Position numbers and translations under genes: made by a program
Shown: one piece after another, positions 40,448 to 63,854 of the stretch
How positions within the stretch are numbered: position 1 is the stretch's first letter
Layout of the letters: every line of letters begins with the position of its first letter
Source of the DNA: Treponema sp.
GTDB taxonomy: Bacteria > Spirochaetota > Spirochaetia > Treponematales > Treponemataceae
DNA length: 64,000 nt
Assembly: GCA_017469785.1 (NCBI GenBank)
Contig: JAFUFU010000003.1
Coordinates: 53,169-117,168 of the forward strand
Reading direction: 5' to 3'
Notes under the pieces: generated by a model
Told to the model about the DNA's origin: nothing
What the model saw: the letters and a program-made list of their open reading frames with translations, nothing else
Database searches by the model: none

Positions 40448-40873
40448 TTAGATGAAATAGTCGTAGCCGTTGAACTGACGGTTTTTTTCTGCGATATGCT
40501 CCAGTGTGTTTGAATCCACGAAATTGTTGATTACATCGTTGAATTCATTCCAAAAATCATCGTTGCCCACGGAACTGAGAGTGTTTGATTCGCTTGGGGA
40601 GCGGGGATTTAAATCTCCTTCCATTGCCCGAAGAATTTCTCCCACCGTGTAGTCCTCTGCTTTTTTTGCCAGCTTGTAGCCGCCGTTGTTTCCCCTAAGA
40701 CCGATTACAAGCCCTGACTTACTGAGCTGAATGAGAATCTGCTCCAGATATTTTGTGGAAAGATTATGCCGGTGGGAAAGAAGCTTGAGGGGAATGAATT
40801 TGTCCTGCTCGCTTTCGGCAAGTTCCGTCATGATGAGAAGAGCATACTGTCCTTTTGTCGAAATTTTTAGCAT
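40448..40873 (-). CDS. Rrf2-family repressor, cluster-less CymR-like
   Basis: Winged-helix DNA-binding protein of 141 residues. The N-terminal MLKISTKGQYALLIMTELA and the wing GLRGNNGGYKLAKK are characteristic of Rrf2. There is no cysteine in the whole protein, so it cannot bind an iron-sulfur cluster like IscR or NsrR. It resembles CymR, which senses sulfur status through a protein partner (CysK in Bacillus). Its own promoter carries two copies of the operator that recurs across the next 20 kb, suggesting autoregulation. It is divergent from nifH across 186 bases containing four operators. Confidence 0.88.
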   Translation of the reverse strand: MLKISTKGQYALLIMTELAESEQDKFIPLKLLSHRHNLSTKYLEQILIQLSKSGLVIGLRGNNGGYKLAKKAEDYTVGEILRAMEGDLNPRSPSESNTLSSVGNDDFWNEFNDVINNFVDSNTLEHIAEKNRQFNGYDYFI

Positions 40874-40899
40874 CTGATTCTTCCTGTTGAAAAAATAAA

Positions 40900-40918
40900 A
40901 CCTATCTTTTAACTAGGT
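40900..40918. promoter_or_regulatory. Rrf2-type operator 1 of the rrf2-nifH interval
   Basis: ACCTATCTTTTAACTAGGT, a perfect match, placed just downstream of the predicted start of the rrf2 transcript. Confidence 0.8.
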
Positions 40919-40925
40919 AATGGTC

Positions 40926-40954
40926 ATAATAACAGGTTTAACCTAGTTTTGCAA
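40926..40954 (-). promoter_or_regulatory. Promoter of the rrf2-metB-like operon
   Basis: On the minus strand TTGCAA (40954-40949), a 17-base spacer and TATTAT (40931-40926). The -35 box lies inside operator 2. Confidence 0.6.
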
Positions 40955-40959
40955 TAGGT
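40941..40959. promoter_or_regulatory. Rrf2-type operator 2 of the rrf2-nifH interval
   Basis: ACCTAGTTTTGCAATAGGT, a perfect match covering the -35 box of the rrf2 promoter. Confidence 0.8.
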
Positions 40960-40974
40960 AAAAATTTTACAACT

Positions 40975-40993
40975 ACCCATTGACATAGTAGGT
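40975..40993. promoter_or_regulatory. Rrf2-type operator 3, over the nifH -35 box
   Basis: ACCCATTGACATAGTAGGT, one mismatch; it contains the TTGACA -35 box (40980-40985) of the nifH-like gene. Confidence 0.75.
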
Positions 40994-41008
40994 AATAATC
41001 ATAATAAT
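40980..41008 (+). promoter_or_regulatory. Promoter of the nifH-like gene
   Basis: TTGACA (40980-40985) and an AT-rich -10 region (41002-41008) lie between operators 3 and 4, so repressor bound at either would block RNA polymerase. Confidence 0.6.
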
Positions 41009-41014
41009 ACGATT

Positions 41015-41033
41015 ACCTATTGAATAACTAGGT
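41015..41033. promoter_or_regulatory. Rrf2-type operator 4, at the nifH transcript start
   Basis: ACCTATTGAATAACTAGGT, a perfect match covering the predicted transcription start. An AAGGGG ribosome site follows before the ATG at 41060. Confidence 0.8.
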
Positions 41034-41041: not shown

Positions 41042-42519
<1,478 letters not shown>

Positions 42520-42936: not shown

Positions 42937-42955
42937 ACCTATTGACAAAATAGGT
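42937..42955. promoter_or_regulatory. Rrf2-type operator of ridA (and perhaps of the PNPOx gene)
   Basis: ACCTATTGACAAAATAGGT, a perfect match. On the minus strand it overlaps the -10 (42952-42947) of a promoter whose -35 TTGACA is at 42976-42971. On the plus strand it contains a TTGACA that could serve the divergent gene at 43044. Confidence 0.8.
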
Positions 42956-43619: not shown

Positions 43620-43638
43620 ACCTACTACATCGCTAGGT
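43620..43638. promoter_or_regulatory. Rrf2-type operator of the first ABC - nifDK operon
   Basis: ACCTACTACATCGCTAGGT, a perfect match. A TAATAT -10 box (43614-43619) directly precedes it, and GAGGAGG lies 10 bases before the ATG at 43662. Confidence 0.8.
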
Positions 43639-43661: not shown

Positions 43662-44474
43662 ATGAAAAAAAATCTTTTGAAAATCGCTTCTGTCGCCACC
43701 CTTTCTCTTGTCTTGGCTTTTGGTATGCTTTCCTGCAAAAAAGAAAAATCTGATGTAAAGACTGTCATCGTCGGCACAGGCTCGGACAGCAAGCTTTACT
43801 GTTATCTGGACGAAAAAGGAGAGCTTGCGGGCTTTGAGATTGATGTAATGAAGGCGATTGACGAGCTTTTGCCCCAGTACAAATTTGAATTTCAGACCTT
43901 CGACTTTAAAAACATTCTTCTCGCACTCTCTGCAGGAAAAATCGACATCGGCGCTCACATGTACGAGTCTAATCCTGAGCGACGAAAAAATTATCTTTTC
44001 ACTGAGTACGGTTACAATGACTTCTCAAAATACATTGTTGTTTTGAAAGACAATACTGAAGTTCACTCGCTTAAGGATTTGGTAGGAAAGACAGCTCAGG
44101 CTTCAACAGGTTCTGCAACAGGTGCAATTCTTCAGCACTGGAACGAGGATCATCCGAACGAGCAGATTAACGCTGTTTTGACAGGTTCACTTACAACAGA
44201 GCAGATTGTTGCGGCAATGAAGAACGGAACTTACGATGCTTACTTTACGAACATTCCGAGCTTCAACCAGACACAGAAAGAATACGGCGGAATCTTCCGT
44301 CTCGTAGAGGAACCGATTTCTACATCTCCTTCATATTTCATCTTCAATCTGGACAATCCACAGCTCAAGGCTGACGTTGACGGCGCACTCAAACAGCTCA
44401 TTGATTCCGGTGAACTTGCAAAAATCGCTATCCGCGACCTGGGTTCTGACACCACGAAGAACATCAACAAATAA
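43662..44474 (+). CDS. Polar amino-acid-type ABC binding lipoprotein (importer 1)
   Basis: Family-3 solute-binding protein of 270 residues with a lipoprotein signal (lipobox GMLSC). The core GEIDVMKAIDELLPQ-type motif appears here as GFEIDVMKAIDELLPQY, and KIDIGAHMYESNPERRKNY is the second typical segment. Proteins of this type bind polar amino acids including cystine and S-substituted cysteines. It opens an operon of binding protein, two permeases, an ATPase and then the first NifDK-like pair. The operator just upstream ties the whole unit to sulfur control. The ligand is inferred only from context. Confidence 0.88.
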   Translation: MKKNLLKIASVATLSLVLAFGMLSCKKEKSDVKTVIVGTGSDSKLYCYLDEKGELAGFEIDVMKAIDELLPQYKFEFQTFDFKNILLALSAGKIDIGAHMYESNPERRKNYLFTEYGYNDFSKYIVVLKDNTEVHSLKDLVGKTAQASTGSATGAILQHWNEDHPNEQINAVLTGSLTTEQIVAAMKNGTYDAYFTNIPSFNQTQKEYGGIFRLVEEPISTSPSYFIFNLDNPQLKADVDGALKQLIDSGELAKIAIRDLGSDTTKNINK

Positions 44475-44480
44475 AAGCGT

Positions 44481-45191
44481 ATGGGTGAATTCTTTTCATG
44501 GCAGCGGCTAATCACGAATTTTCCGATTCTGATTGTTAAGCTGCCAATTACATTTGAAATCGTGGCAGTTGCGTTTTCGTTCGGATTCGTACTTGCGCTT
44601 CTGATTGCGACTGCCCGGATAAAAAAGATTCCCGTGCTGAATCAGATTCTGACTGTTTTCATTTCTTTTGAAAGGGGAACGCCGCTTCTGGTTCAGATGC
44701 TTGTGGTCTATTACGCGCTGCCGATTCTGCTGTATTCGCTTTTTGGAATCGACACGCGCCGCTGGGAAAAAATCATTTTCGTGGACCTTGCCTTGATTTT
44801 GAATCAGGGTGTGTTCTTGGGAGAGATTTTCCGCGGGGCAATCCTTTCGATTCCGCGCGGTCAGAGGGAAGCGGCCCTTGCCTGCGGGTTCAGTGATTTC
44901 AATGCCTTTGTGAAGGTTGTTCTTCCACAGGCGGCTCGGGTTGCTCTTCCTGCAACGGGACTTACGCTCATCGGGCTTTTTCAGGAAACTTCGCTTGTCT
45001 TTATGATTGGCGTGATTGACATTATCGGGCGGGCTTCGGCTCTTGGAGCTACGACCGGGCACAATCTTGAGAGCTATCTGATCATTGCATTCCTTTTCGT
45101 GATGATAAACTTTGCGCTTACGGCAATCACCACGAAAATCGATAAAAATCTGACTTACGGCGCAAAATCCGTAAGAACGGGGGCAGCATGA
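44481..45191 (+). CDS. ABC importer 1 permease, HisM/YecS type (first)
   Basis: Inner-membrane permease of 236 residues with about five transmembrane helices. The ATPase-docking EAA loop is FRGAILSIPRGQREAALACG. It starts 6 bases after the binding-protein gene and overlaps the next permease gene by four bases (ATGA), so the two are translationally coupled. Two different permeases form the heterodimeric channel of this importer. Confidence 0.87.
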   Translation: MGEFFSWQRLITNFPILIVKLPITFEIVAVAFSFGFVLALLIATARIKKIPVLNQILTVFISFERGTPLLVQMLVVYYALPILLYSLFGIDTRRWEKIIFVDLALILNQGVFLGEIFRGAILSIPRGQREAALACGFSDFNAFVKVVLPQAARVALPATGLTLIGLFQETSLVFMIGVIDIIGRASALGATTGHNLESYLIIAFLFVMINFALTAITTKIDKNLTYGAKSVRTGAA

Positions 45192-45850
45192 AATTCAGTT
45201 TTGAATACTTGTGGAAATGTCTGCTTTCGGGCGTGGTCTTTATTCCTGTCACGCTCAAACTTGCTCTCATTCCGCTTGCGATTGCCCTCGTGCTTGGAAC
45301 TCTTATTGCCCTTGCACGGATTTTCAAGATTCCTGTGGTCGAAAAAGTCTTCAAAATTTTTGTTGCGATTTATTCGGGAATCCCTGTCATGGTAACGCTG
45401 CTTATCTTCCATCTGATTTACCTAAGCTGTTTTAAGCCGGGAAAAAACGGAACGATGCTGCTCGCGTATTTCACTTTTACGCTCGGACGAACGATTATCG
45501 TGAGCGAGTCTGTGCGAGGTGCGTTTCTTTCGATTCCAAAAGGTCAGTATGAGGCGGCTTATGCGTGCGGACTTTCGACTTTCCAGACTTTGAGGAAAAT
45601 CGTCATTCCGCAGATGATTCCTGTTGCGCTTCCGACACTTACGAACAACACGCTCGGTTCCATAAAAAATACTTCTATTGTAATGGTTCTTGGAATTGTG
45701 GATGTTCTGAACGGATCGACCATTCCGTGTGCGGACACTTACAGTTATGTCGAAGGCTATGTGGCGGCGGCAATCATCTATTGGGCAGTGAACGCGGTTG
45801 TGGAATTCCTGCTCGTGCGGCTTGAAAAACATTTAGCGAAAAAAAGGTGA
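45188..45850 (+). CDS. ABC importer 1 permease (second)
   Basis: Permease of 220 residues with the EAA loop [20 protein letters not shown]. It overlaps the previous gene by four bases and is followed five bases later by the ATPase gene. It is the second half of the channel of the same polar amino-acid-type importer. Confidence 0.87.
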
Positions 45851-45855
45851 TTTCT

Positions 45856-46614
45856 ATGATTAAAGTTGAGCATGTGAAAAAGAATTTCGGTCATCTCGAA
45901 GTTTTGCATGATGTGTCGCTCACGGTCGATGACGGAAATGTAATCGTCATTCTCGGACCGAGTGGCAGCGGAAAAACAACGCTCCTGCGCACGATAAATT
46001 TTCTGGAGCGGGCGGACAAAGGCACTCTTACAATCGGTGACACGACAATTGATTTGCACGGCGCAAAGAAAAAGGATGTGCTTGCAGTCCGAAGAAAAAC
46101 GGCGATGGTTTTCCAGAATTACAATCTTTTTGCAAACAAGACTGCGCTTGAAAATATCGTCGAGGCACTGGTTACGGGACATGGAGTTCCGAGGGCGCAG
46201 GCAGTTGAGCGTGCAAAGCTGGAACTTGAAAAAGTCGGACTTAGTGATAAAGAAAATTATTATCCGAGCCAGCTTTCAGGCGGTCAGCAGCAGCGGGTGG
46301 GAATAGCGAGGGCGGTGGCCTTGGATGCGGAGGTGATTCTCTTCGATGAGCCGACCAGTGCCCTTGACCCGGAACTTGTAGGGGAAACTCTCGCCTTGAT
46401 TAAGCAGGTCGCGAAGGAAGGGCACACCATGATTGTCGTGACTCATGAAATGAGCTTTGCCGAAGAAGTGGCGGACAAAGTTGTATTCATGGACGGCGGT
46501 TATGTCGTTGAAGAAGGAAATCCGAAGGATATTTTTTATTATCCGAAAGAAGAGCGGACGAAACAATTCCTGCGAAGGATTCTTCCGCCGACTGATTTAT
46601 CATCAAATCTATAG
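45856..46614 (+). CDS. ABC importer 1 ATPase, GlnQ/HisP type
   Basis: ATP-binding subunit of 252 residues. Translation probably starts at the ATG at 45856 after AAGGTG, rather than at an in-frame GTG at 45847 that overlaps the permease gene. Walker [10 protein letters not shown] is at 34-42, the signature [13 protein letters not shown] and Walker [15 protein letters not shown]. It closes importer 1 and is followed, 26 bases later, by the first NifD-like gene. Confidence 0.9.
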
Positions 46615-46640: not shown

Positions 46641-48122
46641 ATGGCGAAACAGATTCAGGACACAATCCGGGACAGCCATCCGAGTTTTGCGGATGTGCAG
46701 GTCGGAGAATCGCAGTCTTTGCGTGAAAAAGCGCAGAAGCACTGTCTGAAAAATGCGCACAGGACTTTTGAACAGGGCATCCAGTGCGTACAGGTAAACA
46801 GCATGAATGCGCTCGTGAGTTTGCAGGACACGGTGATGGTGATTCATTCGCCGCTGGGCTGCTCAGGCTGTGCCGCGTTCGGTGCGATTGACCGTTTGAA
46901 TGTTTACAAGCATCACCGTGGACGTGATGATGCTCCCGACAGCCATGTCATTTCTACGGCTCTCGGCGAAAAAGAAGTCATTTTGGGCGGAGAAAAACGC
47001 CTCGAAGAAACAATCAAAAAGGCAGTTGAACGCTACAATCCGAAAATCGTGTTCATTTTGTCGTCGTGCGCGGCGGCAATCATCGGAGACGACATTGATG
47101 CGGTTGCAGAGCGTATGGAAAAAAGATACCGCCGCATCGAAGGAAAGGACATTCTTTTTGCTCCGGTTCACTGCGAGGGCTTTAAAAGCCGGAACCACGC
47201 CACGGGCTACGATTTGGCTCTTGCCACCCTCCAAAATTATGTAATCCGCGAGGCTCGCCCTCCCAAGCAGAAAGGGCTTATCAATCTTTTTGCGACACAT
47301 TCTTTAAGCTGGGCTGACCAGCAGGAAATGAAGCGGATGCTCAAGGCAATCGGGCTTGAAGCGAACATTCTGCCCTACAACGCTTCGTATGAAGACATCA
47401 TGAAAATCCCTGCGGCTGAATATAATATCTCTGTCTGCCAGATTTTCGGCGACGAATACATTAAATTTCTGAACGAAAAATACGGCATTCCCTACGCGGT
47501 AACTTGTATGCCAATCGGAACGAGAAGCACAAACCGCTGGCTCAGGGCGATTGCAAAACTTGCGGGCAAGGAAAAGGAAGCGGAGGCATTTATTGAATCA
47601 GAAAGCGCCACCGTAGCAGAGGAAGTCGAAGCCATCAGGAAAAAGACGGACGGACTTCGAGCCTGCCTTACTGCTGGAACAGGGCGAGGATTTGCGGCGG
47701 CAACGCTCATCGGAGACTACGGCATGAAGCTTCTCTGTATGCACACTCCTTACTACGATGAGGCCTACATCGATGACTTCAAGCGGCTGGAAGAGCTTCA
47801 CGGCTCGGACTTTCTTGTGAACATTGCGGACATGCAGCCCTACGAGCAGGTCAATCTCCTTAAAAAATTCAAGCCCGATGTCTTTATCGGCATGTCTAAC
47901 TGGGTGAGCCGCCTGGGAATTCCTTCCCTCCACATTCTTGACTCAAAGCGACCGACCTTCGGCTACAGGGGAGTTCTTTATCTGGGGCGAAAAATCGAAG
48001 ATGCGCTGGACAACAACAACTTCAACAAGAATCTCTCGCAATTTTCAAAGAACGCTTACCGCGAGGAATGGTACAAAAAAGACGCGTTCAGTTATTTGCA
48101 GATGCCGGAGGATGCGTTATAG
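46641..48122 (+). CDS. NifD-like nitrogenase-family catalytic subunit, pair 1
   Basis: Alpha-subunit homologue of 493 residues in the nitrogenase superfamily. Aligned by eye to NifD, the P-cluster cysteines are C49, C74 and C143 (C62, C88 and C154 in Azotobacter). The cofactor ligands are C266 in SVCQIFGDEYI and H431 in SLHILDSKRP (C275 and H442). The spacings agree within a few residues. The positions of Q191 and H195, needed for N2 reduction, read H186 and Y190 in GFKSRNHATGYD. So it probably holds a large metal cluster but acts on something other than N2. GAGGA precedes the ATG. It follows importer 1 in one operon. The nearest characterised relative by logic is methylthio-alkane reductase MarD; CfbD and BchN types fit less well because they lack the cofactor ligands. 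Confidence 0.88.
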   Translation: MAKQIQDTIRDSHPSFADVQVGESQSLREKAQKHCLKNAHRTFEQGIQCVQVNSMNALVSLQDTVMVIHSPLGCSGCAAFGAIDRLNVYKHHRGRDDAPDSHVISTALGEKEVILGGEKRLEETIKKAVERYNPKIVFILSSCAAAIIGDDIDAVAERMEKRYRRIEGKDILFAPVHCEGFKSRNHATGYDLALATLQNYVIREARPPKQKGLINLFATHSLSWADQQEMKRMLKAIGLEANILPYNASYEDIMKIPAAEYNISVCQIFGDEYIKFLNEKYGIPYAVTCMPIGTRSTNRWLRAIAKLAGKEKEAEAFIESESATVAEEVEAIRKKTDGLRACLTAGTGRGFAAATLIGDYGMKLLCMHTPYYDEAYIDDFKRLEELHGSDFLVNIADMQPYEQVNLLKKFKPDVFIGMSNWVSRLGIPSLHILDSKRPTFGYRGVLYLGRKIEDALDNNNFNKNLSQFSKNAYREEWYKKDAFSYLQMPEDAL

Positions 48123-48235: not shown

Positions 48236-49501
48236 ATGGAAAAATGTATAGAACGACCACGAAATTTATGCTCGCTGCACGGTGCGCTTGATGTAATCGG
48301 GAACATTTACCGCGCGATTCCGATTCTCCACGCAAGTCCCGGATGCTCGATGCAGGCTTCCAACAAAACGAACCTGTATTACCTCGGCGGATATCACGGA
48401 CTTCCCAGCTCCAACGCCTATGAAAAGGAAGTCGTCTTCGGCGGAACAAAACGTCTTGGAGAGACAATCAAAGGAAGCCTCGAAATTATGGACGGAGACT
48501 ATTACGCTGTCCTTACAGGCTGCTCAATGGGAATCAACGGCGACGATGTTGAAAGCGTCATCTCGAAATTTGAAGATTCGCCCTATCCGCTCACAAGCAT
48601 CGACACGGCGGGATTCCGCGGTGACACTTACACCGGCTACAACATGGCGCTTCTTGCGACGGTAAAAGCTCTCGCCAGAAAGACAAAGACTGATTCACGC
48701 CTCGTGAACATCTACGGACAGCCGCCAAGCTCGGACATCACCCTGCGCGGTGACTTTGAAGAAATCACACGGATTCTTTCAAAAATCGGCGTAAAGGCAA
48801 ACACATTCTTTATCCGCCGGGACGGAATCCAGCAGTTCAAAAACTCAGGAAATGCCGCGCTCAACATCAATCTTTCTCCGTGGCTTGCAAAAAATGTAGA
48901 CACCTACTACAAGCAGAACTTCGGAATCGAAACGCTCACTTTGAACGGCTGGCCGGTCGGTCCGAAAGATACGGCTGTCTTTTTGCGCACGGTCGGCAAA
49001 GCCCTCGGCATTGATCCGAAAGTCATCGAAAAGGCTGTAAAAGAAGAAGAACTGTATGTATATGAGTACTTGGATTCACTGTTCGGAAACTTTGAGCGGC
49101 ACCGCTTCATTCTGGTGGGAGAAAGCGCAAAGGCTCTGGGACTTGCCCGCTTCCTCGTGAACGTGCATGGTCATATTCCGCTTGCAGTGATTCTGACCGA
49201 TTCAGTGCATGAAAAAGAGCGGGAAATAATCCGCGAAGAGATTCAGAACCTTGACTGTTCACGAAAAGCTGACGTCTATTTTGAAAATGATGTGTACGAC
49301 ATCGAGCAGATTGCAAAAAAATATGAAGGCCGCGCAACCCTTTTCATGGGAAGTTCCTACGAAAAGAAAATCGCGCAGAAGCTCGGCGCATTCTTTGCAA
49401 TCACTTCAAATCCGTGTCTCGACAAGGAGATTTTGAACCGCTCGCATATCGGCACTCACGGCTGCATTTCGCTCGTAGAGGATTTGTATAACCACTTCTA
49501 A
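48236..49501 (+). CDS. NifK-like nitrogenase-family beta subunit, pair 1
   Basis: Beta-subunit homologue of 421 residues. Three cysteines, C12, C37 and C96, sit with spacings of 25 and 59, matching the P-cluster ligands of NifK (C70, C95 and C153, spacings 25 and 58). The motifs are HASPGCSMQ and LTGCSMGINGDD. The long N-terminal extension of NifK is absent, as usual for short nitrogenase-like proteins. It forms the heterotetramer with the preceding NifD-like protein. AAGGAG precedes the ATG. The next gene begins after a further operator at 49513-49531. Confidence 0.88.
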   Translation: MEKCIERPRNLCSLHGALDVIGNIYRAIPILHASPGCSMQASNKTNLYYLGGYHGLPSSNAYEKEVVFGGTKRLGETIKGSLEIMDGDYYAVLTGCSMGINGDDVESVISKFEDSPYPLTSIDTAGFRGDTYTGYNMALLATVKALARKTKTDSRLVNIYGQPPSSDITLRGDFEEITRILSKIGVKANTFFIRRDGIQQFKNSGNAALNINLSPWLAKNVDTYYKQNFGIETLTLNGWPVGPKDTAVFLRTVGKALGIDPKVIEKAVKEEELYVYEYLDSLFGNFERHRFILVGESAKALGLARFLVNVHGHIPLAVILTDSVHEKEREIIREEIQNLDCSRKADVYFENDVYDIEQIAKKYEGRATLFMGSSYEKKIAQKLGAFFAITSNPCLDKEILNRSHIGTHGCISLVEDLYNHF

Positions 49502-50881: not shown

Positions 50882-50891
50882 GAGAAAAAAC

Positions 50892-55330: not shown

Positions 55331-56146
55331 ATGAGCGATGCAGTCATAGAGATAAAAAATCTTTCTTTGTCTTATAAATCTGAGAACACGACTTACGAAG
55401 CGTTGCGGAATATCAACCTGACGATAAACCGCGGTGAATTCATCTGTATTGTCGGTTCCAGCGGATGCGGTAAAAGTACTTTGCTTTCTGTTTTGGAAGG
55501 TCTGAATCTTCCGACTTCCGGCAGTGTAAAAATAAACGGACAGGAAGTTACTGGTCCTGGTGTTGAAAGGGCCGTAGTTTTTCAAAGCTATTCACTTTTT
55601 CCGTGGATGACCGCATTGGAAAATGTTGCTTTTGCCGTGCGTGAAAATTCGAGAAAAACAACAAAGATTACCAAAAGGGAATCTTTTGACATTGCGCGTA
55701 CTTTTTTGCGCCGTGTTGATTTGACTGCTTTTGAAGATAAGTTGCCGGGTGAACTTTCAGGCGGTATGCAGCAGCGTGTTGCAATTGCCCGTGCGATGGC
55801 GTGTAACCCTGAGATTCTTTTGATGGATGAACCTTTCGGTGCTTTGGATACCAAGATTCGAGATAATTTGCAGGGGCTTATTCTCAAACTTTGGGGCGAG
55901 GAAGAGAAAAAAAAGACCGTCGTATTTGTAACCCATGACTTGAATGAAGCCGTTCTGCTTGCGGACAGAATCGTATTTATGATTCCAAAGCAGATTTATT
56001 CAATAGTAAATATCAATCTGCCGAGACCTCATTCTCATCCGTCGGTAAAGGAAAGTCCCGAGTATAAAGAATTATATCAGAAGCTGCTGAGACTTTTTTA
56101 CAATGATAGTTCTGAATTGATTTATGATGAGGGGGCAAATATATGA
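55331..56146 (+). CDS. SsuB/TauB-type ABC ATPase (importer 3)
   Basis: ATPase of 271 residues for a nitrate/sulfonate/taurine-class importer. Walker A GSSGCGKST is at 42-50, the signature LSGGMQQRVAIARA and Walker B ILLMDEPFGALDTK. The FQSYSLFPWMTALENV and FGALDTKIRDNL segments are characteristic of the SsuB/TauB/NrtD group, unlike the GlnQ-type ATPases of importers 1 and 2. It overlaps the permease gene by four bases (ATGA). Confidence 0.88.
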   Translation: MSDAVIEIKNLSLSYKSENTTYEALRNINLTINRGEFICIVGSSGCGKSTLLSVLEGLNLPTSGSVKINGQEVTGPGVERAVVFQSYSLFPWMTALENVAFAVRENSRKTTKITKRESFDIARTFLRRVDLTAFEDKLPGELSGGMQQRVAIARAMACNPEILLMDEPFGALDTKIRDNLQGLILKLWGEEEKKKTVVFVTHDLNEAVLLADRIVFMIPKQIYSIVNINLPRPHSHPSVKESPEYKELYQKLLRLFYNDSSELIYDEGANI

Positions 56147-57096
56147 GCACTAACAGAATAGCAGAAAAATGGTCAATCAAATCAGTTCTTTTCAATTTGC
56201 CGAATCTGCTTTTTATTGCGACATTGCTTTGTTTTTTGTTGCCGAGTAAATATGCAACAGAGATGCGTATTGGACTTAAGAGTGCTTTTGCATTTATTGT
56301 TGTTCTTGCCCTCGTGGAGATTGTTTTTTTAATCAAACTTCAAAATCCTCGGAAAAGATGTTCTGTACTTGATGTTTACGCATTTATCTTTGGGGTCCTG
56401 CTTGTTTGGGAACTGTGTGTCTCTCGTCTAAATCTGCTGCCTTATGTGTTCATTCCTGCTCCTGAAAATGTGTTTAATGTGTTCATTCAGGACTGGAAGA
56501 CAGTTCTTTTGGGATTTTTTAATTCTATGTTTTTGATTTTTGTCGGAATGTCTGTCGCTATGGTTGCTGCTGTAATTCTAGGTACATTGGTCGGCTGGAA
56601 CAAAAGGCTTGCAAGTACGATATATCCGATTGCCAAGGCTGTTTCAACGGTTCCTGCGCTTATTTATACACCGTACATAGTATTGATTATGCCGAACTTC
56701 AAGCTTGCTTCTTTGTTCGTTATTTTTCTCAGTAATTTCTGGAGTACATTTATGGGCTCAATCAATAATACAGCTTTTGTTGAGGAGCGCATCATAAATT
56801 CTGCCCGTGTACTCAATCTTTCAACTCCAGTTATTTTGTTCAGAATTATAATTCCGTTCAATTTGCCCCGCATTATAAACAGCCTTCCGATTCATCTTTC
56901 TTCTTCGCTTATGACGCTTACGGTTGCAGAAATGCTTGGCGCGAACAGCGGCATGGGATATTTTGTTCGTCTGGCACTAAACTTTGCGAATTATACAAAG
57001 GCTATTGCCGGAATTATCTTTATTGGAATCGTTGTTACCTTGTTGAATCTTATTATTGATGCGGCAAAAAAGCGATTCATTAAGTGGAATTATTAA
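56143..57096 (+). CDS. SsuC/TauC-type ABC permease (importer 3)
   Basis: Permease of 317 residues with about seven transmembrane helices; the first two (about residues 20-65) are additional to the usual SsuC core. The core opens FIPAPENVFNVF, as in SsuC and TauC, and the docking loop lies in VEERIINSARVLNLSTPVIL. It follows the ATPase gene with a four-base overlap and precedes the binding-protein gene by 45 bases. Confidence 0.86.
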   Translation: MSTNRIAEKWSIKSVLFNLPNLLFIATLLCFLLPSKYATEMRIGLKSAFAFIVVLALVEIVFLIKLQNPRKRCSVLDVYAFIFGVLLVWELCVSRLNLLPYVFIPAPENVFNVFIQDWKTVLLGFFNSMFLIFVGMSVAMVAAVILGTLVGWNKRLASTIYPIAKAVSTVPALIYTPYIVLIMPNFKLASLFVIFLSNFWSTFMGSINNTAFVEERIINSARVLNLSTPVILFRIIIPFNLPRIINSLPIHLSSSLMTLTVAEMLGANSGMGYFVRLALNFANYTKAIAGIIFIGIVVTLLNLIIDAAKKRFIKWNY

Positions 57097-57141
57097 AAAT
57101 TTAAATTATAGGGGAAACCCTAAAAAAAATAAGGAGCATTT

Positions 57142-58245
57142 ATGAAAAAATCAGTAAAAAAAGTGTTGTTCACACTCTCCGCAGGAATTGCCGTTTTGTT
57201 TGCAACGGCATGTTCAAAAAAAACGGCAAGCGTTAAATATACGCTGAATCTTGCAAGGTCAGTTTCTGAAACGGCAGGAAATCCGCTCATTTTGATTTCA
57301 AATGAAAACAATTTTTATGCGGATAATGGACTTGAACTTCAGTTTACTGGTGTTGAAAGAGCTGGTGCTACAGAGGCCGTCAGTATTGGTAAAATGGACG
57401 GACAGTATTTGTACCTTGTTCCACCGCTGGCAGAGGGCGGACAGGGAGCTAATATTACAATCCTTGCAGGTTCGGTTTCTGGTGGAAAGGCTGTTCTTGC
57501 ACGCAAAGAAGTTGTTGATAAACTGAGAAATGTCAATGACTGGAAAGGTGCAAAAATCGGTCTTAAGCTATATGCAATTCCGGATATGATTATCAAAAGT
57601 GCTCTGAGTGAGGATTATGGATTCGATTTGGAAAAAGATGTCGAGTTCAAATATTATGACGGAGACGAAACTACAGTTGCCGCACTTCGAAAGGGCCTTA
57701 TTGATGTAGGTACAACATCAAGTTCTTATGTTGAGGTCGCAAAATCTCTTGGAGTTGAATATTTGTTCCCTCTGACAAAATTGAAACCTAACTATGTCTG
57801 TTGTCGTCAATCCGTTAATACAAAACGCCTTGAAGAGGACAGAGAGGCATTCAAGATTCTTGTTAAAGGTGAAATCCTTGCCTATAAAACTTACAAAACA
57901 GACGAAAAACTGGCTGTTTCAATCTTTTCTTCGGCTATCGGACAGACTGAGGAATGGACTTATGATTATCTGTACAATACTGAGACTAATCAGGAAATAA
58001 ACTTCAATCCAGACCCTAACTACAACGGAACGCTTGGCGTTTATACAATTTTACAGAATTCCGGCTACATCGAGAACGGAAGACCTTTAAATGAATTCTT
58101 CAATATTGAACTGTATGCTGAGGTTCTCAAGGAAGTCATTGCAGAAAATCCTAACGATCCTTTCTACAAGGATATGTGGTCATTCTTCGTTAAAAATAAC
58201 AATAAATACCCTAACTTCAGCTCAACATATAGTTCTACAATCTGA
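57142..58245 (+). CDS. SsuA/NMT1-type binding lipoprotein (importer 3)
   Basis: Binding protein of 367 residues with a lipobox (LFATAC). The pattern LNLARSVSETAGNPLILISN and VGTTSSSYVEVAKSLGVEYL fits the NMT1/SsuA class that binds sulfonates, taurine, nitrate or thiamine precursors. Given the sulfur regulon, a sulfonate or other organosulfur anion is the first guess. It is 35 bases before the second NifD-like gene, so import and reduction are encoded on one transcript. Confidence 0.86.
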   Translation: MKKSVKKVLFTLSAGIAVLFATACSKKTASVKYTLNLARSVSETAGNPLILISNENNFYADNGLELQFTGVERAGATEAVSIGKMDGQYLYLVPPLAEGGQGANITILAGSVSGGKAVLARKEVVDKLRNVNDWKGAKIGLKLYAIPDMIIKSALSEDYGFDLEKDVEFKYYDGDETTVAALRKGLIDVGTTSSSYVEVAKSLGVEYLFPLTKLKPNYVCCRQSVNTKRLEEDREAFKILVKGEILAYKTYKTDEKLAVSIFSSAIGQTEEWTYDYLYNTETNQEINFNPDPNYNGTLGVYTILQNSGYIENGRPLNEFFNIELYAEVLKEVIAENPNDPFYKDMWSFFVKNNNKYPNFSSTYSSTI

Positions 58246-58280: not shown

Positions 58281-59750
58281 ATGGTTGAGAAACAGATTCC
58301 TGAGACTATTCGTGACACGCATCCTGGTTTTGTTGATGCGACTGTTGGAACATACGAAGAAATAAAAGGAAAAATAGAAAAAAAATGTCTTAAAAACGCG
58401 CACAGAAAGTTTGCGCAGGGCATTCAGTGTCTGCAATATAACAGCGTAAATGTACTTTTAAGTCTGCAAGATACGGTAATGGTCGTTCATTCACCGCTTG
58501 GTTGTGCTGCATGTGGTGCGCTCCGTGGAATAGAGCGGCTTAATGTCTATAAACATCACATGGGACAAGCTGATGCTAAAGAAAGCCGCATCATTTCTAC
58601 GGCATTAGGTGAAAAAGAAGTCATTCTAGGTGGAGAAACCAGGCTTAAAGAGACGATTGATGAAGCTGTTGCAAGACACCATCCGAAAATCGTATTTATT
58701 CTTTCAAGCTGTGCCGCCGCAATTATCGGTGATGACATAGACGCAGTCGCAGAAAAAATTGAGAAGAAATATAAGTCGGAAGGAATCTTGTTTGCTCCCG
58801 TTCATTGTGAGGGTTTCAAAGCAAAAAATCATGCCACAGGATATGACCTCGCACTTGCTACGATTCAAAACTATGTCATTCGGTTGGCGCGTCCGCCGAA
58901 AAAAAAGGGACTTATCAATTTATTCACACCTCATACTGTAAGTTATGCAGATCAGCTTGAGATGAAAAGAATGCTTAAGGCTATCGGCCTTGATGCAAAT
59001 GTCATGCCGTATAATGCGACTTATCAGGATATTATGAACATTCCTGCTGCTGAATACAATATTTCGGTTTGTCAGATTTATGCTGATGATTATATGCGCT
59101 TCCTCAAGGAAAAATACGGAATACCGTTCGCCAAAACATGTATGCCGGTTGGAACCAGAAGCACTGACCTTTGGTTGCGTTCGATTGCAAAAATTGCTGG
59201 AAAAGAAAAGGAGGCTGAGGAATTCATAGCAAGGGAACGCGCAGCCGTCATGGATGAGATTAACGAGATAAAAAAGAAAACTCAGGGTCTGAAAGCATTC
59301 ATAACGGCTGGAACAGGCCGAGGTTTTGCTGCGGCAACAATAATCGGTGACTATGGTATGAAACTTCTTGCAATGCACACACCGTATTATGAGGATGCTT
59401 ACATCGATGACTTTAAACTCATTGAAGAACTTCATGGCTCCGGATTTTTAATCAATGTAGCAGAAATTCAGCCGTATCAGCAGGTAAATCTTGTCAAAAA
59501 ATACAATCCTGATATTTTCATCGGGCTTTCAATCTGGACATCCCGTCTTGGCATCAATACAACACATATCCTTGACCCGAAAAGATTTACTTTCGGATAT
59601 CGCGGAGCATTGTATTTGGGAAGAAAAATATCAGATGCGCTTTCCAACAATAATTTCAACAGAAAGCTTTCAAAGCATACACGCCTTCCATACCGAGACA
59701 GCTGGTTTGAAGACGATGCGTTTAAATATGTCGAATTTCCAGAAGAGTAG
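58281..59750 (+). CDS. NifD-like nitrogenase-family catalytic subunit, pair 2
   Basis: Alpha-subunit homologue of 489 residues, a close paralogue of the protein at 46641. P-cluster cysteines align as C50, C75 and C144; the cofactor ligands as C264 in SVCQIYADDYM and H429 in TTHILDPKRF. Its counterpart of alpha-His195 is again tyrosine (FKAKNHATGYD). Differences from pair 1 lie around the cluster approaches, for example SPLGCAACGALRG against SPLGCSGCAAFGA, which could tune substrate choice. It follows the SsuABC-type importer. Like pair 1 it has no Fe protein gene of its own and should use the NifH-like protein at 41060. Confidence 0.88.
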   Translation: MVEKQIPETIRDTHPGFVDATVGTYEEIKGKIEKKCLKNAHRKFAQGIQCLQYNSVNVLLSLQDTVMVVHSPLGCAACGALRGIERLNVYKHHMGQADAKESRIISTALGEKEVILGGETRLKETIDEAVARHHPKIVFILSSCAAAIIGDDIDAVAEKIEKKYKSEGILFAPVHCEGFKAKNHATGYDLALATIQNYVIRLARPPKKKGLINLFTPHTVSYADQLEMKRMLKAIGLDANVMPYNATYQDIMNIPAAEYNISVCQIYADDYMRFLKEKYGIPFAKTCMPVGTRSTDLWLRSIAKIAGKEKEAEEFIARERAAVMDEINEIKKKTQGLKAFITAGTGRGFAAATIIGDYGMKLLAMHTPYYEDAYIDDFKLIEELHGSGFLINVAEIQPYQQVNLVKKYNPDIFIGLSIWTSRLGINTTHILDPKRFTFGYRGALYLGRKISDALSNNNFNRKLSKHTRLPYRDSWFEDDAFKYVEFPEE

Positions 59751-59765: not shown

Positions 59766-61031
59766 ATGAAACATTGTATTGAGCGACCGAGAGAATTCTG
59801 TTCGCTTAACGGAGCTATTGATGTCGTCGGAAATATTTACAGGGCAATTCCGATAATTCATGCCAGTGCTGGATGTAGTCTTCAAGCTGCAAACATGACG
59901 AATTTGTATTATTTGGGCGGATATCACGGACTTCCCAGTTCAAACTGTTATGAAAAGGAAGTCGTTTTCGGAGGAACACAGCGGCTTCGTGAGACAATAC
60001 AGGGAAGTCTGGATGTTATGGACGGCGATATATATGCTGTCCTGACAGGATGTTCCATGAGCATAAACGGTGATGATGTTGAGAGTATAGTCAGTGAGTT
60101 CAAGGATGCTCCATATCCTGTCGTGACTATTGATTCAGGTGGATTTAGGGGTGATACATACTACGGATATCAACTTGCATTGCTCAAACTGATACAAACA
60201 CTTGCAAAAAAAACGGAACGGGATCCTTTGCTCGTAAATTTGTACGGTCAGGTACCTAGCACTGATTTTACTTTGCGGGGTGATCTTGAAGAAATCGCCA
60301 GAATTCTGAGTAAAATTGGTGTAAAAGTGAATACATTTTTCATCGAACAAGACGGAATTCAACAGCTGAAGAATTCTGGAAATGCGGCACTCAACATAAA
60401 TCTTTCACCGTGGATTGGCAAGAATATCGATGCGTATTATAAGACTGCATTTGGAATCGAGACGCTTGAATACAATGGCTGGCCGGTAGGTCCGACTGCT
60501 GTTGCTGATTTTTTACGAAAAGTTGGTGATAAACTTGGAATTGATAAAAATCAGGTTGAAAAGGCGATTGCAGACGAAGAAAAATATGCATATCAATACT
60601 TTGATTCTCTTATGGGTGATTTTGAGAGACATCGATTTATTCTTGTCGGAGAAACAACCGTTGCTTTGGGAGCGCTGCGTTTTCTTGTAAATGATTATGG
60701 ACACATACCGCTTGTCGTCATTTTTACAGATACCGTTCCAGACAATAAAAAAGCTGTGATAGAAGATGAGGTTCGTGCGCTTGAGTATAACGAAAATGTA
60801 GACATCTATTTTGAGGATGATAATCATAATATCGAGCAAATTGCGCTCAAATATAAAGAACGACTCACTGTTGTACTAGGAAGCAGTTATGAAAAGCCTC
60901 TTGCTAAAAAAGTCGGAACTTTCTTTGTGAATGTTTCGGCGCCTTGTCTTGATAAAAAGACATTGAATAAGTCCCATATTGGAATTCGTGGTTGCATTAC
61001 CTTCATCGAAGATATGTATAATCACTACTGA
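59766..61031 (+). CDS. NifK-like nitrogenase-family beta subunit, pair 2
   Basis: Beta-subunit homologue of 421 residues, exactly the length of its paralogue at 48236. Cysteines C12, C37 and C96 match the P-cluster positions (HASAGCSLQ, LTGCSMSINGDD). It starts 15 bases after the NifD-like gene, with no palindromic insert, showing the ancestral spacing of the pair. An intrinsic terminator follows, ending the operon of small ORF, importer 3 and reductase 2. Confidence 0.88.
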   Translation: MKHCIERPREFCSLNGAIDVVGNIYRAIPIIHASAGCSLQAANMTNLYYLGGYHGLPSSNCYEKEVVFGGTQRLRETIQGSLDVMDGDIYAVLTGCSMSINGDDVESIVSEFKDAPYPVVTIDSGGFRGDTYYGYQLALLKLIQTLAKKTERDPLLVNLYGQVPSTDFTLRGDLEEIARILSKIGVKVNTFFIEQDGIQQLKNSGNAALNINLSPWIGKNIDAYYKTAFGIETLEYNGWPVGPTAVADFLRKVGDKLGIDKNQVEKAIADEEKYAYQYFDSLMGDFERHRFILVGETTVALGALRFLVNDYGHIPLVVIFTDTVPDNKKAVIEDEVRALEYNENVDIYFEDDNHNIEQIALKYKERLTVVLGSSYEKPLAKKVGTFFVNVSAPCLDKKTLNKSHIGIRGCITFIEDMYNHY

Positions 61032-61084: not shown

Positions 61085-61123
61085 TTTAGAAAATTACCTC
61101 ACTTTGCAAACTAATATTTTTTT

Positions 61124-61166
61124 CTGATACCTCCCATAGAAATTTTATATTTTTCACGATTTTACA
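61124..61166 (+). promoter_or_regulatory. Shared upstream motif, copy C
   Basis: CTGATACCTCCCATAGAA, then TTTTATATTTTTCACGATTT, matching copy B at almost every base. A TTTACA -35 box (61161-61166) follows at the same place. Confidence 0.5.
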
Positions 61167-61178
61167 ATTTTGATATAA

Positions 61179-61197
61179 ACATAGCATAACAGTAGGT
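61179..61197. promoter_or_regulatory. Rrf2-type operator of the tandem binding-protein operon
   Basis: ACATAGCATAACAGTAGGT, one mismatch, at the same distance from the TTTACA box as at 55098, overlapping a CATAAC -10. Confidence 0.7.
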
Positions 61198-61290
61198 AAT
61201 ACGGAGGTTCAAAATAATTATACGACATAAACGAATTTCTGGATTCCGAACATAACAAATCAATTTCAAAAAACAGAGGAGAAACAGTCT

Positions 61291-62214
61291 ATGAAAAAAC
61301 CATCGCTTTTATCAAAACATTTGCTGAAAATTGCGCTCGTGCTTCTTTCACCCATGCTGATTTCGGTGCTTTCGTGCAATGGTAAAAAAGAATCTGGTGC
61401 GAAAGTAGAGGTTAGAAAAATTACGGTTGCGGTTCGACAGGATTATATTCCGTATGCCTATGTCGATGAAAGCGGAAAATTAACAGGCTATGAATATGAT
61501 ATTCTCCGTGCAGCAGAAAAATTTCTTCCTCAGTATAAATTTGAATATTTTGCAACTGGACAGGAAGACGCTTTGCTTGGTCTTGAAACTGGTAGAAACC
61601 AGATTGTTGTGAGCGGTTTGTTCTCCAATCCGACTCGTGTAGCGAAATATGGAATCCCAAAAAATCCTGAGAGTGCGACTGTCACCGGATTTTATGTGAA
61701 CGCAAAATACAAGGACAAATTGCAGGGCTGGAACAAAGAGGACGGCTATTCTGATATTTTTTACAACAACCTGAAAGTTGCTCCGATTTTTGGTGCTGGT
61801 GGAATTCTTGGAATTGCAGAGGAATACAACAGAAAAAACCCAGATCGAAAAATTTCGTATGAGACTGGCTCAACTAGGATTCCGAGCACTGAGTTTTTTG
61901 CGTGGGTACTAGAGGGGCGCTATGATGCTGTTCTTGGAAATGAATCAAGTTTCTGGCAGACCTACAACCTTGATGGAAAAATCAATTCTAGTGGTACACC
62001 AGATCCGAATTACAAAGACAAGCTTATTTTTGTTCCGACTTACAGCATTGGTGTGTGGCCGTTCTTCAACAAAAACGAAACACAGCTTATCGAGGACTAC
62101 AACAAGGCTTTTGAGGAATTGTATAAAAATGGCACTGTAAAGACTCTTCAGGAAAAATATTTTGGAAAAGAAGTTCTTTCTGGACTTCGTGAACATGAAA
62201 AGATTCGCTTCTGA
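61291..62214 (+). CDS. ABC importer 4 binding lipoprotein (first of a tandem pair)
   Basis: Family-3 binding protein of 307 residues with a lipobox (VLSCNGKK). The binding-core segments are VRQDYIPYAYVDESGKLTGY and ALLGLETGRNQIVVSGLF. A leader of about 90 bases precedes it, with GAGGAG before the ATG; a GGAGG at 61203 has no usable start codon after it. It is the first gene of an operon with a paralogous binding protein and a permease. Spacing to the next gene is 26 bases. Confidence 0.87.
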   Translation: MKKPSLLSKHLLKIALVLLSPMLISVLSCNGKKESGAKVEVRKITVAVRQDYIPYAYVDESGKLTGYEYDILRAAEKFLPQYKFEYFATGQEDALLGLETGRNQIVVSGLFSNPTRVAKYGIPKNPESATVTGFYVNAKYKDKLQGWNKEDGYSDIFYNNLKVAPIFGAGGILGIAEEYNRKNPDRKISYETGSTRIPSTEFFAWVLEGRYDAVLGNESSFWQTYNLDGKINSSGTPDPNYKDKLIFVPTYSIGVWPFFNKNETQLIEDYNKAFEELYKNGTVKTLQEKYFGKEVLSGLREHEKIRF

Positions 62215-62240
62215 TTCAAACTACATAATGAGGTACAAAT

Positions 62241-63131
62241 ATGAAAAAAATAGTCATAAAAATTACTGCGATACTGTCTATATTGTTTGCTTTTTCTTCA
62301 TGCAATAAGAAATCTTCAAAAGATATTACCCGCAAAGTTACCGTGGCATTAAATCAGGCCTATGTGCCGTATGCCTATGTTGATGAGAATGGAAAAATCA
62401 CGGGTTATGAATACGATGTTCTTCGTGAAGTTGAAAAGCTTCTCCCGAAATATAAATTCACCTATGTTTCTACTTCTCAGGAAGATGCTCTTCTTGGTCT
62501 TGAAACCGGACGAAACGACATAGTTTTGAGCGGAATGTTTAAAAATCCTGTTCGAGCAGAAAAGTATGGAATTCCGAAAAATCCTGAATGTGCGACTGTT
62601 ACTGGATTTTTTGTAAATGCTGCATATAAGGACAAGCTGAAAGGTTGGAACAAAGAAAGCGGTTATTCTGACATCGTTGAAAATAATCTTCGGCTCGGAC
62701 CAGTGAATTCTGCGACTGGATTGTACGGAATCGTCCTTGAATACAATGAAAAAAATCCGGATAAGCAGCTGCAATTTACCACTGTAACTCAAAATATCCC
62801 GAACACTGAAATGTTTGCATGGGTTCTTGACGGCCGGTACGATGCGTTTATCTTTAATGAACCGTCATTTTGGCTGACATATAACAGCGATGCAAATATT
62901 ACTCCTAATGGAGTGCCGAATCCTACCTATAAAGACAAGCTTGTTTTTGTTCCGACTTACAGCATTGGTGTGTGGCCGTTCTTCAACAAAAATGATACTG
63001 AGCTTATCGAGGACTACAACAAGGCTTTTGAGGAATTGTATAAAAACGGCACGATTGCAAAGATTCAGGACAAATACTTCAGCAAAGATGTTCTTTCGTT
63101 GCTCCGAGAGCATGAGAAGGTTCGCTTTTAG
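62241..63131 (+). CDS. ABC importer 4 binding lipoprotein (second of a tandem pair)
   Basis: Binding protein of 296 residues with a lipobox (AFSSCNKK), a tandem duplicate of the preceding gene. Both share YVPYAYVDENGK-type and LLGLETGRN segments. The DNA for the last quarter is nearly identical between the two genes, while the middle has diverged, which suggests recent gene conversion of the 3' part. The diverged middle should form the ligand pocket, so the two proteins may feed different solutes to one permease. Confidence 0.87.
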   Translation: MKKIVIKITAILSILFAFSSCNKKSSKDITRKVTVALNQAYVPYAYVDENGKITGYEYDVLREVEKLLPKYKFTYVSTSQEDALLGLETGRNDIVLSGMFKNPVRAEKYGIPKNPECATVTGFFVNAAYKDKLKGWNKESGYSDIVENNLRLGPVNSATGLYGIVLEYNEKNPDKQLQFTTVTQNIPNTEMFAWVLDGRYDAFIFNEPSFWLTYNSDANITPNGVPNPTYKDKLVFVPTYSIGVWPFFNKNDTELIEDYNKAFEELYKNGTIAKIQDKYFSKDVLSLLREHEKVRF

Positions 63132-63161
63132 AAAACAAAATAAGAAACAAAAGGAGTCGGT

Positions 63162-63854
63162 ATGAACAGAGAGTTTTCATTCGAAATTATTCCGAAACTT
63201 GCGCTGACATTTCTGCCTTTCTTGAAAGTGACGCTTCTGACACTTCTTCTGGCTCTTATTTTCGGGACGATAATTGCAACCGTTCTTGTAAAACTTCGTC
63301 TGAGCAAGAGAAAATTACTGAATACCATTGCATATACATATATTGCTGCGATTCGTTGTACGCCTGCCGTTATTCTGATTTTCATAGTGTTTTACGGGCT
63401 TCCGTTTTTGCTTCAGCTGATTGGAATTGACATCATTGCTTTTCCGAGGATTTTTTTCATCACGGTCGCATTGTCGATTTCTTTTTCAGCAACTTTTTCG
63501 GAAGTTATGCGAACTTCTTATCTTGCCGTGAACAAAGGTCAGACTGAGGCGGCCATCGCACTTGGATTATCTGGATTTCAGGCTTTTTATCGTATCGTTC
63601 TTCCGCAGGCATTTGTGTATGCGCTTCCAAACTTCGGCAATTCTCTGATTATGCTTTTTAAGGAGACTTCGCTTGCATATACGATTGGCGTGGTTGATTT
63701 GATGGGAAAAATGAACCTTTACATTTCCTACAAACATGGAAGAAATGGTCTTGAGGCCTACATTACGGTTGGGTTGATTTATTGGGTGTTCGTTCTGCTT
63801 TTTGAGCGAATCTTTACGCTGCTTGATAAGAAAAATTCAAGGGGGCTGAGATGA
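63162..63854 (+). CDS. ABC importer 4 permease
   Basis: Polar amino-acid-type permease of 230 residues with about five transmembrane helices and the docking loop SYLAVNKGQTEAAIALG. AAAGGAG precedes the ATG. Only one permease is visible and no ATPase follows within the window, so the rest of importer 4 lies beyond 64000 or is shared. Confidence 0.86.
   Translation: MNREFSFEIIPKLALTFLPFLKVTLLTLLLALIFGTIIATVLVKLRLSKRKLLNTIAYTYIAAIRCTPAVILIFIVFYGLPFLLQLIGIDIIAFPRIFFITVALSISFSATFSEVMRTSYLAVNKGQTEAAIALGLSGFQAFYRIVLPQAFVYALPNFGNSLIMLFKETSLAYTIGVVDLMGKMNLYISYKHGRNGLEAYITVGLIYWVFVLLFERIFTLLDKKNSRGLR

Follow-up and report, generated by a model that had tools for sequence, protein, structure and literature searches.

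The island and its operator

Within a window of 64,000 nucleotides of Treponema DNA (assembly GCA_017469785.1, contig JAFUFU010000003.1, positions 53,169 to 117,168), nitrogenase-like reductase genes were found in one island with importers and sulfur genes. The window forms the right-hand 64 kb of contig C59 in a rumen-type Treponema genome (3.24 Mb, 97% complete) and ends where the contig ends. The island holds one NifH, two NifD/NifK-like pairs, here called D_A/K_A and D_B/K_B, four ATP-binding cassette (ABC) importers and a CymR-like Rrf2 regulator. The NifH, the two pairs and the four importers had been named in a preliminary description of this DNA, and all were recovered: NifH exceeds the cut-off of TIGR01287, the two pairs score 211-261 bits with PF00148 (cut-off 28.6), and the fourth importer is cut by the contig end. 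The island starts with a pyridoxal phosphate (PLP) enzyme and the Rrf2 gene, both on the minus strand, followed by NifH, a radical SAM protein and RidA (both minus strand), a PNPOx-like protein, importer A, D_A and K_A. After K_A come importer B, a MATE transporter, a GNAT protein, importer C, D_B, K_B and importer D, which is incomplete because the window ends with the contig. Each pair is co-directional with its own ABC importer. The radical SAM protein near nifH scores above the cut-off of TIGR04038 and slightly under that of TIGR04100. The main genes are as follows.

39270..40436, minus strand: cystathionine gamma-lyase/synthase-type PLP enzyme, downstream of Rrf2 (NCBIfam top match NF005810, 438.8 bits, under the cut-off of 594)
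40448..40873, minus strand: Rrf2-family regulator, CymR-like (CymR/IscR-like; PF02082; top equivalog CymR NF047409, 111 bits, under the cut-off of 195)
41060..41911, plus strand: NifH-like Fe protein, the sole one of its type found in the genome (TIGR01287, 456.8 bits, cut-off 394.35)
43662..46614, plus strand: ABC importer A (binding protein, two permeases, ATPase), amino-acid/cystine type, conserved with D_A-K_A
46641..48122, plus strand: D_A, NifD-like catalytic subunit (PF00148)
48236..49501, plus strand: K_A, NifK-like subunit (PF00148)
49534..52546, plus strand: ABC importer B (two permeases, ATPase, binding protein), amino-acid/cystine type
52608..53957, plus strand: MATE-family transporter (TIGR00797, 233.7 bits, cut-off 147.4)
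54250..54774, plus strand: GNAT acetyltransferase
55331..58245, plus strand: ABC importer C, SsuBCA/NMT1-like
58281..59750, plus strand: D_B, paralogue of D_A (PF00148)
59766..61031, plus strand: K_B, paralogue of K_A (PF00148)
61291..63854, plus strand: ABC importer D (two binding proteins, one permease; the remainder lies past the contig end)

A 19-bp dyad, ACCTA-N9-TAGGT, was first spotted in the intergenic stretches. Expected numbers were taken from shuffles, and the reversed pattern served as the control for the whole genome. The earlier proposal that the nitrogenase-like genes, the importers and PLP sulfur enzymes share one operator here was borne out, as the exact dyad occurs 6 times in the window against 0.01 expected. 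With up to one mismatch, 13 sites were counted against 0.43 expected. The genome holds 12 exact dyads and none of the control pattern. Nine of these sites lie at sulfur or nitrogenase-like genes, namely three between Rrf2 and nifH, two at nifB and one each at importer A-D_A-K_A, patB, sufS and a cysK gene that is followed by another Rrf2. The remaining three lie upstream of RidA/PNPOx, of a GST-like gene and of a gene with an FGE-sulfatase domain. One-mismatch dyads precede importer B, importer C-D_B-K_B, importer D and GNAT. In the following list, operators come from the motif scan and are given without strand; two further sulfur genes of the window are included.

4742..6016, plus strand: O-acetylhomoserine sulfhydrylase (MetY type), likely acceptor of released thiol or sulfide (TIGR01326, 569 bits, cut-off 495)
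33715..34884, minus strand: PatB-family C-S lyase; its promoter has an exact operator (TIGR04350, 475 bits, cut-off 340)
34905..34923: operator ACCTA-N9-TAGGT, exact, at patB
40900..40918: operator, exact, between Rrf2 and nifH
40941..40959: operator, exact, between Rrf2 and nifH
40975..40993: operator, one mismatch, overlapping the -35 of the promoter-like site of nifH
40980..41008, plus strand: promoter-like TTGACA-17-AATAAT upstream of nifH (11/12 consensus matches)
41015..41033: operator, exact, between Rrf2 and nifH
42937..42955: operator, exact, at RidA/PNPOx
43620..43638: operator, exact, upstream of importer A-D_A-K_A
49513..49531: operator, one mismatch, before importer B
51658: operator-like site, one mismatch, inside the importer B region
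54215: operator-like site, one mismatch, at GNAT
55098..55116: operator, one mismatch, upstream of importer C-D_B-K_B
61179..61197: operator, one mismatch, upstream of importer D

The one-mismatch site over the -35 of nifH fits the expectation for a repressor. Promoter-like sites show no excess in the region overall (11 found, 11.4 expected). We infer that the window Rrf2 protein is the one that binds the dyad. A sulfur regulon is indicated by the dyads although this protein scores under the CymR cut-off (111 against 195 bits). In T. bryantii B25 (taken as G286), eight of the nine exact dyads lie within 42 kb of the island. The sulfur regulon with importers wired to reductases, as earlier described for this spirochaete, is upheld by the dyad sites and the gene order. 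In our view, D_A/K_A and D_B/K_B are likely to be the catalytic parts of two reductases that act on organic sulfur compounds independently of oxygen.

The arrangement resembles the CymR regulon of Bacillus subtilis with its ytmI-type importer/monooxygenase operon, in which the monooxygenases depend on oxygen. Both combine an Rrf2 regulator, an amino-acid-type importer, a GNAT protein and PLP sulfur enzymes. In the window, by contrast, nitrogenase-like reductases take the place of the oxygen-dependent monooxygenases.

Some further genes carry the dyad. The GST-like protein (L080, 1501-2778) and the protein with the FGE-sulfatase domain (L082, 1501-2411), each with an exact dyad upstream, are likely members of the regulon. 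A one-mismatch dyad (39063-39081) coincides with the start of a gene for a predicted membrane protein (37611-39086). This gene adjoins a P-type ATPase with heavy-metal domains (34987-37527). Metal handling may thus be tied to the sulfur regulon.

Cluster ligands and ancestry of the reductase pairs

In comparison with solved structures, D_A scored 218 bits with MarD (next match 137 bits) and K_A scored 234 bits with MarK (next match 59.5 bits). Judged by similarity, the nearest enzyme of known function for both pairs is methylthio-alkane reductase, Mar (MarBHDK of Rhodospirillum rubrum, PDB 9fmg/9d9u; PMC12552129), as had been proposed. The two pairs are paralogues, with about 70% identity between D_A and D_B and about 67% between K_A and K_B. 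Among NCBIfam profiles, Nif or Vnf models were top-scoring for all four subunits. For K_B, the BchB model came second (84.5 against 94.3 bits), and CfbD was weak for all four. A Cfb/Bch (DPOR/CfbCD) placement, which the preliminary description had named as one outcome that would speak against its interpretation, was rejected on these scores.

The ligands reported for Mar (PMC12552129) are the P-cluster cysteines Cys66, Cys91 and Cys158 in MarD and Cys32, Cys56 and Cys121 in MarK, together with the cofactor ligands Cys270 and His429. The Arg428-His429 motif lies on a MarD-specific Loop I and was suggested there as a hallmark of Mar. D_A has the P-cluster residues Cys49, Cys74 and Cys143, the cofactor residue Cys266 and His431 in the column of NifD His442, and no MarD Loop I. 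D_B has the same set with Cys264 and His429, and K_A and K_B have cysteine in all three MarK P-cluster columns.

The comparison was widened to an alignment of 85 D proteins (roles of the NifD residues are described in PMC9641968). Arg428-His429, Trp195 and Phe199 are present in all 22 Mar-type rows. None of the 21 rows of the window type has the Arg428-His429 Loop I. All 21 have a histidine aligned with nitrogenase His442 and keep the P-cluster cysteines, and 20 have the cofactor cysteine, with a gap in the other. At residues 195/199, the window type carries His/Tyr (14/21) or Cys/Phe (7/21). The 22 NifD rows have Gln191 and His195 throughout, a combination absent from every window-type row. 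The remaining 20 rows are NifE-like proteins and the D protein of contig C28. As the types were assigned by the loop motifs themselves, the independent evidence lies in the agreement of residues 195/199 and of the trees.

The window-type motif at the His442 column is H-[IV]-L-D-x-K-R-x-T; its spacing matches, with H..D...P..G[FY].G in most rows. MarD has no histidine in this column and is not full length there. The position of His431 was agreed on by two modes of MAFFT and by profile-profile alignment, and D_A His431 and D_B His429 are therefore likely the second cluster ligands. In the alignment, D_A and D_B combine the cysteines needed in Mar with the ligand pattern of nitrogenase, and they match neither in the substrate pocket.

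Trees were calculated for 56 of the 85 D rows (surplus NifD and NifE rows, near-duplicates and the C28 protein were dropped) and for 50 of 67 K rows. A joint tree of 26 D and 18 K rows, picked to span the clades, was rooted between D and K. In the D tree, Mar and the window type are split from NifD and NifE at 100/100; the window clade has a support of 100/99 and the Mar clade of 99/92. The K tree gives the same two blocks at 100/100 and a window clade at 99/100, with Mar K unresolved. The D half of the joint tree separates (NifD, NifE) from the window (100/99) and Mar (98/96) clades at 95/94. In its K half, window and Mar are sisters at 98/99, and the window K clade has just 87/82. As a best estimate, then, the window clade would be sister to Mar in the rooted tree. 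This clade divides into the kind present in the window and a second kind, with about 47% identity between them.

The pairs form a clade of their own outside the MarD clade in the D and joint trees and are without Arg428-His429. They are therefore not Mar, and on this point the earlier interpretation was not borne out in the phylogeny with MarD, NifD and NifE. The likeness to Mar comprises the top match of both subunits, the six P-cluster cysteines, the Cys270 column, a separate NifB/MarB and a sulfur role; moreover, Mar-type pairs with Arg-His occur in the same islands. The window type differs from Mar in its separate clade, the histidine in the nitrogenase Loop II column in place of Loop I Arg428-His429, His or Cys for Trp195, a shorter stretch near His375 and operons shared with importers.

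In PMC12552129, the ancestral cluster histidine could not be deduced, as nitrogenase and Mar use different loops. The window clade would be the comparison lacking for this question. In the best tree, or with the window clade outermost, the Loop II histidine would most simply be ancestral and Loop I of Mar derived, so that a nitrogenase-type ligand would be the simplest ancestral state. If window and Nif were sisters, the histidine could be shared and derived.

The main alternative is that the pairs are Nfa-type nitrogenases (group IV-A), which would fix N2 with an Fe-only cluster. Equivalents of Cys275 and His442 are retained in the window pairs, a position of the window clade beside Nif survives the approximately unbiased (AU) test (p 0.076), and NfaD is predicted to carry the needed ligands (PMC9147875, PMC11257099). 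Endomicrobium proavitum, with Nfa as its only nif-like genes, is a reported 15N2 fixer (PMC9147875, PMC11257099), and its NfaDK is reported as the N2-fixing enzyme (via PMC9147875, PMC11257099, PMC8399215). NfaHDK of E. proavitum and Heliophilum NflDK1 are, like the window pairs, group IV pairs without NifEN in which N2-type ligands are said to be kept (PMC9147875). The function reported or predicted for them, N2 fixation, differs from the one proposed here. Nonetheless, Gln191/His195, present in 22/22 NifD rows, is replaced by His/Tyr or Cys/Phe in 21/21 window-type rows. No NifEN-type pair was seen among the D/K genes of the genome, and no NifV scored above its cut-off in this 97% complete assembly. 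The sulfur-regulon context with importers and the several paralogues on one NifH also speak against N2 fixation, which we regard as unlikely. The analysis is least certain on two points, the identity of the window clade with Nfa and the order in which Nif, Mar and the window clade branch from the root.

In the reading as organosulfur reductases, a further step would be to add the pairs to nitrogenase and Mar as a third type of reductase with an [Fe8S9C] cluster, namely a sulfur scavenger of the Mar lineage with a nitrogenase-type Loop II histidine ligand. This step is put forward tentatively, with the odds somewhat against it in view of the unsettled rooting. If it is true, with Mar as sister and nitrogenase outside, the Loop II ligand would be ancestral to both, and the cofactor pocket of nitrogenase could have originated in C-S chemistry. 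If the window clade is Nfa, group IV-A, reported as N2-fixing, would be recast as a sulfur family.

Importers and modules in relatives

PF00148 is present in 64 of 392 Spirochaetota genomes. All relatives of D_A that were found (14 loci) lie on Treponema/spirochaete contigs, including T. bryantii B25 and ruminant gut assemblies. T. bryantii B25 has D_A-K_A alongside one pair of Mar type and one of C54 type. The window NifH shares 99% identity with the NifH of Treponema saccharophilum (L079).

The count of gene neighbourhoods covered 33 units, i.e., 22 of the 64 genomes with PF00148, G392, nine further Treponema contigs and a plasmid of Candidatus Chlorohelix. Three loci were left out as copies (L019, L020 and L026 of G306, G286 and G392, respectively). 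Two short contigs stand outside the count: L021, with D, K and MATE at the edge and no importer visible, and L027, where an importer precedes a truncated D. The operon includes an importer gene in 14 of 15 window-type modules and in 4 of 8 modules of the second kind; for pairs of Mar type the count is 9 of 11, and for those of C54 type 8 of 21. The importer rule is thus strong in modules of the window type but weak in the C54 type, which often adjoins cysK instead of an importer. Among the counted modules of the window type, only that of G232 has no importer; it begins directly at the edge of the sequence piece fetched, and the preceding piece ends in the four importer genes. The modules of L016 and L025 were counted though cut by contig edges, with a partial importer that is in L025 the downstream SsuCB-like one only.

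The genome of the window holds further nitrogenase-like genes. Contig C54 carries a Mar-like pair with Arg-His, two cysK genes, an SsuABC set, NifB and a MarK-like gene cut by the contig start; its NifB has NifB as top match with 283 bits against a cut-off of 344. An unrelated H-D-K set lies on contig C28. The two reductases of the preliminary description are thus both in the window, but the genome as a whole holds more. Exactly one window-type NifH and one NifB were found, with the thresholds used, in 13 of 13 genomes, each of which holds two or more D/K pairs. In Heliophilum, one nifH-like gene and five NflDK pairs are reported (PMC9147875).

In the window, GNAT-ssuBCA is followed by D_B-K_B, and on plasmid pTS2 of T. 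saccharophilum by a Mar-type pair. The same importer genes with different reductases suggest an exchange of reductases behind one importer. Should the pairs be a third kind of cluster reductase, one NifH and one NifB would serve a swappable set of reductases, many with their own importer. Co-divergence of the binding protein of importer C with its downstream reductase was considered and rejected: among six genomes, ssuA pairs are 32-49% identical whatever the reductase. In this comparison, ssuB pairs are 72-87% and ssuC pairs 58-72% identical.

Several D/K pairs on one NifB and one NifH would also suit a cofactor-assembly role, in which one or both window pairs act as NifEN-like scaffolds for the Mar-type pairs that the genome holds elsewhere. 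The window D proteins also get similar scores from NifE and NifD profiles. Yet importers accompany the pairs in 14/15 modules, the P-cluster set is complete, NifE rows cluster with NifD and not with the window clade, and Mar is reported to hold an unprocessed [Fe8S9C] precursor cluster (PMC12552129). A scaffold role is the least probable of the alternatives weighed here and hardly to be expected.

Window-type relatives were not found in viral contigs. Four records came from the plasmid collection. Those of Candidatus Chlorohelix and T. saccharophilum have Mar- or C54-like genes, and the other two are Nostoc matches at 26% identity. pTS2 (L079) is a 382-kb plasmid whose sulfur island, at 3317-22313 and near a type I-C CRISPR locus, comprises MetY, cysK, a NifB-like gene, NifH, a C54-type pair, ssuBCA and a Mar-type pair. 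The system can thus occupy a separate replicon. On the Candidatus Chlorohelix plasmid (L078; 375 kb, Chloroflexota), a nifB-nifX-nifH-D-K operon of Mar type, which also has MetY and an ABC importer, lies at 172-10707.

Proposed sulfur scavenging and its alternatives

For the two pairs as organosulfur reductases, the most likely role, judged from sequence and context, would be oxygen-free scavenging by reductive C-S cleavage. Under sulfur shortage, the CymR-like Rrf2 protein would let go of the dyads. Importers A (amino-acid type) and C (SsuBCA type) would then take in different organosulfur compounds. From NifH, ATP-driven electrons would reach the P-cluster and then the [Fe8S9C] cluster that NifB makes, with Cys266 and His431 of D_A, or Cys264 and His429 of D_B, as its ligands. 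The cluster would be assembled without NifEN and without homocitrate. The C-S bond would be reduced to give a thiol or sulfide, captured by MetY, CysK and related PLP enzymes and lyases. MetY lies above its cut-off twice in the genome. From the importer type and the neighbouring GNAT, the substrate of pair A might be guessed to be an S-alkyl amino acid.

The PF01077 sulfite reductase was not found in the own genome, while it is present in 11 of 14 control genomes. For this reason, the product is probably a thiol or sulfide and not sulfite, and the sulfonate-to-sulfite chemistry considered earlier becomes less likely here. In the phylum sample, PF01077 occurs in two genomes of the same genus, one of them a carrier of an Isr-like locus.

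That locus bears on the possibility that the pairs are sulfonate reductases like isethionate reductase (Isr), from which sulfite would be released. Isr of Rhodobacter capsulatus (IsrBHDK) operates with SsuCAB and NflHDK (PMC11423573), importer C is SsuBCA-like, and an Isr-like locus with an adjoining dyad exists in the same genus (L096). The parallel is a nitrogenase-like reductase with an SsuABC importer for sulfur, for which reductive C-S cleavage was proposed (PMC11423573). IsrD is described there as having no Cys275, no His442 and just one P-cluster cysteine left of three, with a BciD-like radical SAM partner and an assumed release of sulfite, whereas the window D proteins have equivalents of all these ligands. 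Since Isr is without most ligands, the window pairs are not Isr: all four cysteines are present in D_A and D_B, and membership was rejected, the Isr pattern being found in L096 instead. With no PF01077 found in the own genome either, sulfonate reduction of the Isr kind is improbable, slightly more so than N2 fixation. The L096 locus (9442-16475 and flanks) holds NifH, a ligand-poor D, K, SsuABC, PF01077 sulfite reductase and MetY; an exact dyad at 11603-11621 precedes the two genes for MetY and the sulfite reductase, which come after the Isr-like H-D-K set with SsuABC.

The pairs might instead reduce a different bond in what is imported, e.g., in sulfoxide, selenium or nitrogen-containing groups, with sulfur being incidental. 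Importers A and B are of general amino-acid types, and the reaction is itself deduced from sequence. The regulon includes cysteine and methionine genes, and for Mar and Isr, the two sulfur relatives that have been characterised, cleavage of C-S bonds was reported or inferred, which leaves this alternative very improbable.

Several points weigh against reductive organosulfur scavenging by the window pairs. Adjacency alone is weak evidence for any single locus, because ABC importers are common. The active-site residues differ from Mar (Trp195 replaced by His or Cys, a shorter His375 stretch), so the chemistry of Mar is not simply transferable. Neither the Rrf2 nor the NifB protein reaches its NCBIfam equivalog cut-off (that of CymR and of NifB, respectively). 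The exact dyad has no clear excess over the control in four of the 13 genomes (G191, G368, G374, G383). The D tree carries the warning that the long Nif and window branches meet. In the joint tree, the AU test leaves window with Nif (p 0.076) and Mar with Nif (p 0.153) unrejected; as no alternative is rejected, the branching order is a best estimate and not settled. Finally, NfaD, reported as a nitrogenase, may belong to the same clade as the window pairs.

Overall, the observation of the preliminary description is confirmed and its interpretation partly supported. It had known of no comparable system, and a literature search (including PMC8674449 and PMC7483759; subscription papers were outside its reach) found no description of such Treponema systems in the sources it covered. 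Precedents exist outside the genus in Isr with SsuCAB (PMC11423573) and in Heliophilum (PMC9147875). Mar, and Isr with SsuCAB, are the C-S-cleaving nitrogenase relatives described so far in these sources (PMC12552129, PMC11423573). In addition, Mar-like group IV-A genes were reported near methyl-sulfur clusters (PMC10418091), and scattered group-IV genes next to cysteine synthase, possibly sulfur-related, in a termite spirochaete (PMC13067680). With reductive scavenging by the window pairs, the C-S cleavage that nitrogenase relatives carry out without oxygen would extend to gut spirochaetes, where it would take the form of a modular system of import and reduction.

Two minor observations concern further genes of this kind. 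In L026, at 10001-11454, D_A is split over two frames by a frameshift or an assembly error. The second H-D-K set of the own genome (C28, L010, 6352-12517) adjoins a siderophore-type (FecBCD-like) importer. Its D is without the cofactor cysteine and its K has one of three P-cluster cysteines, and it therefore forms a distinct group, whose kind of NifH was found in 4 of the 13 genomes checked.

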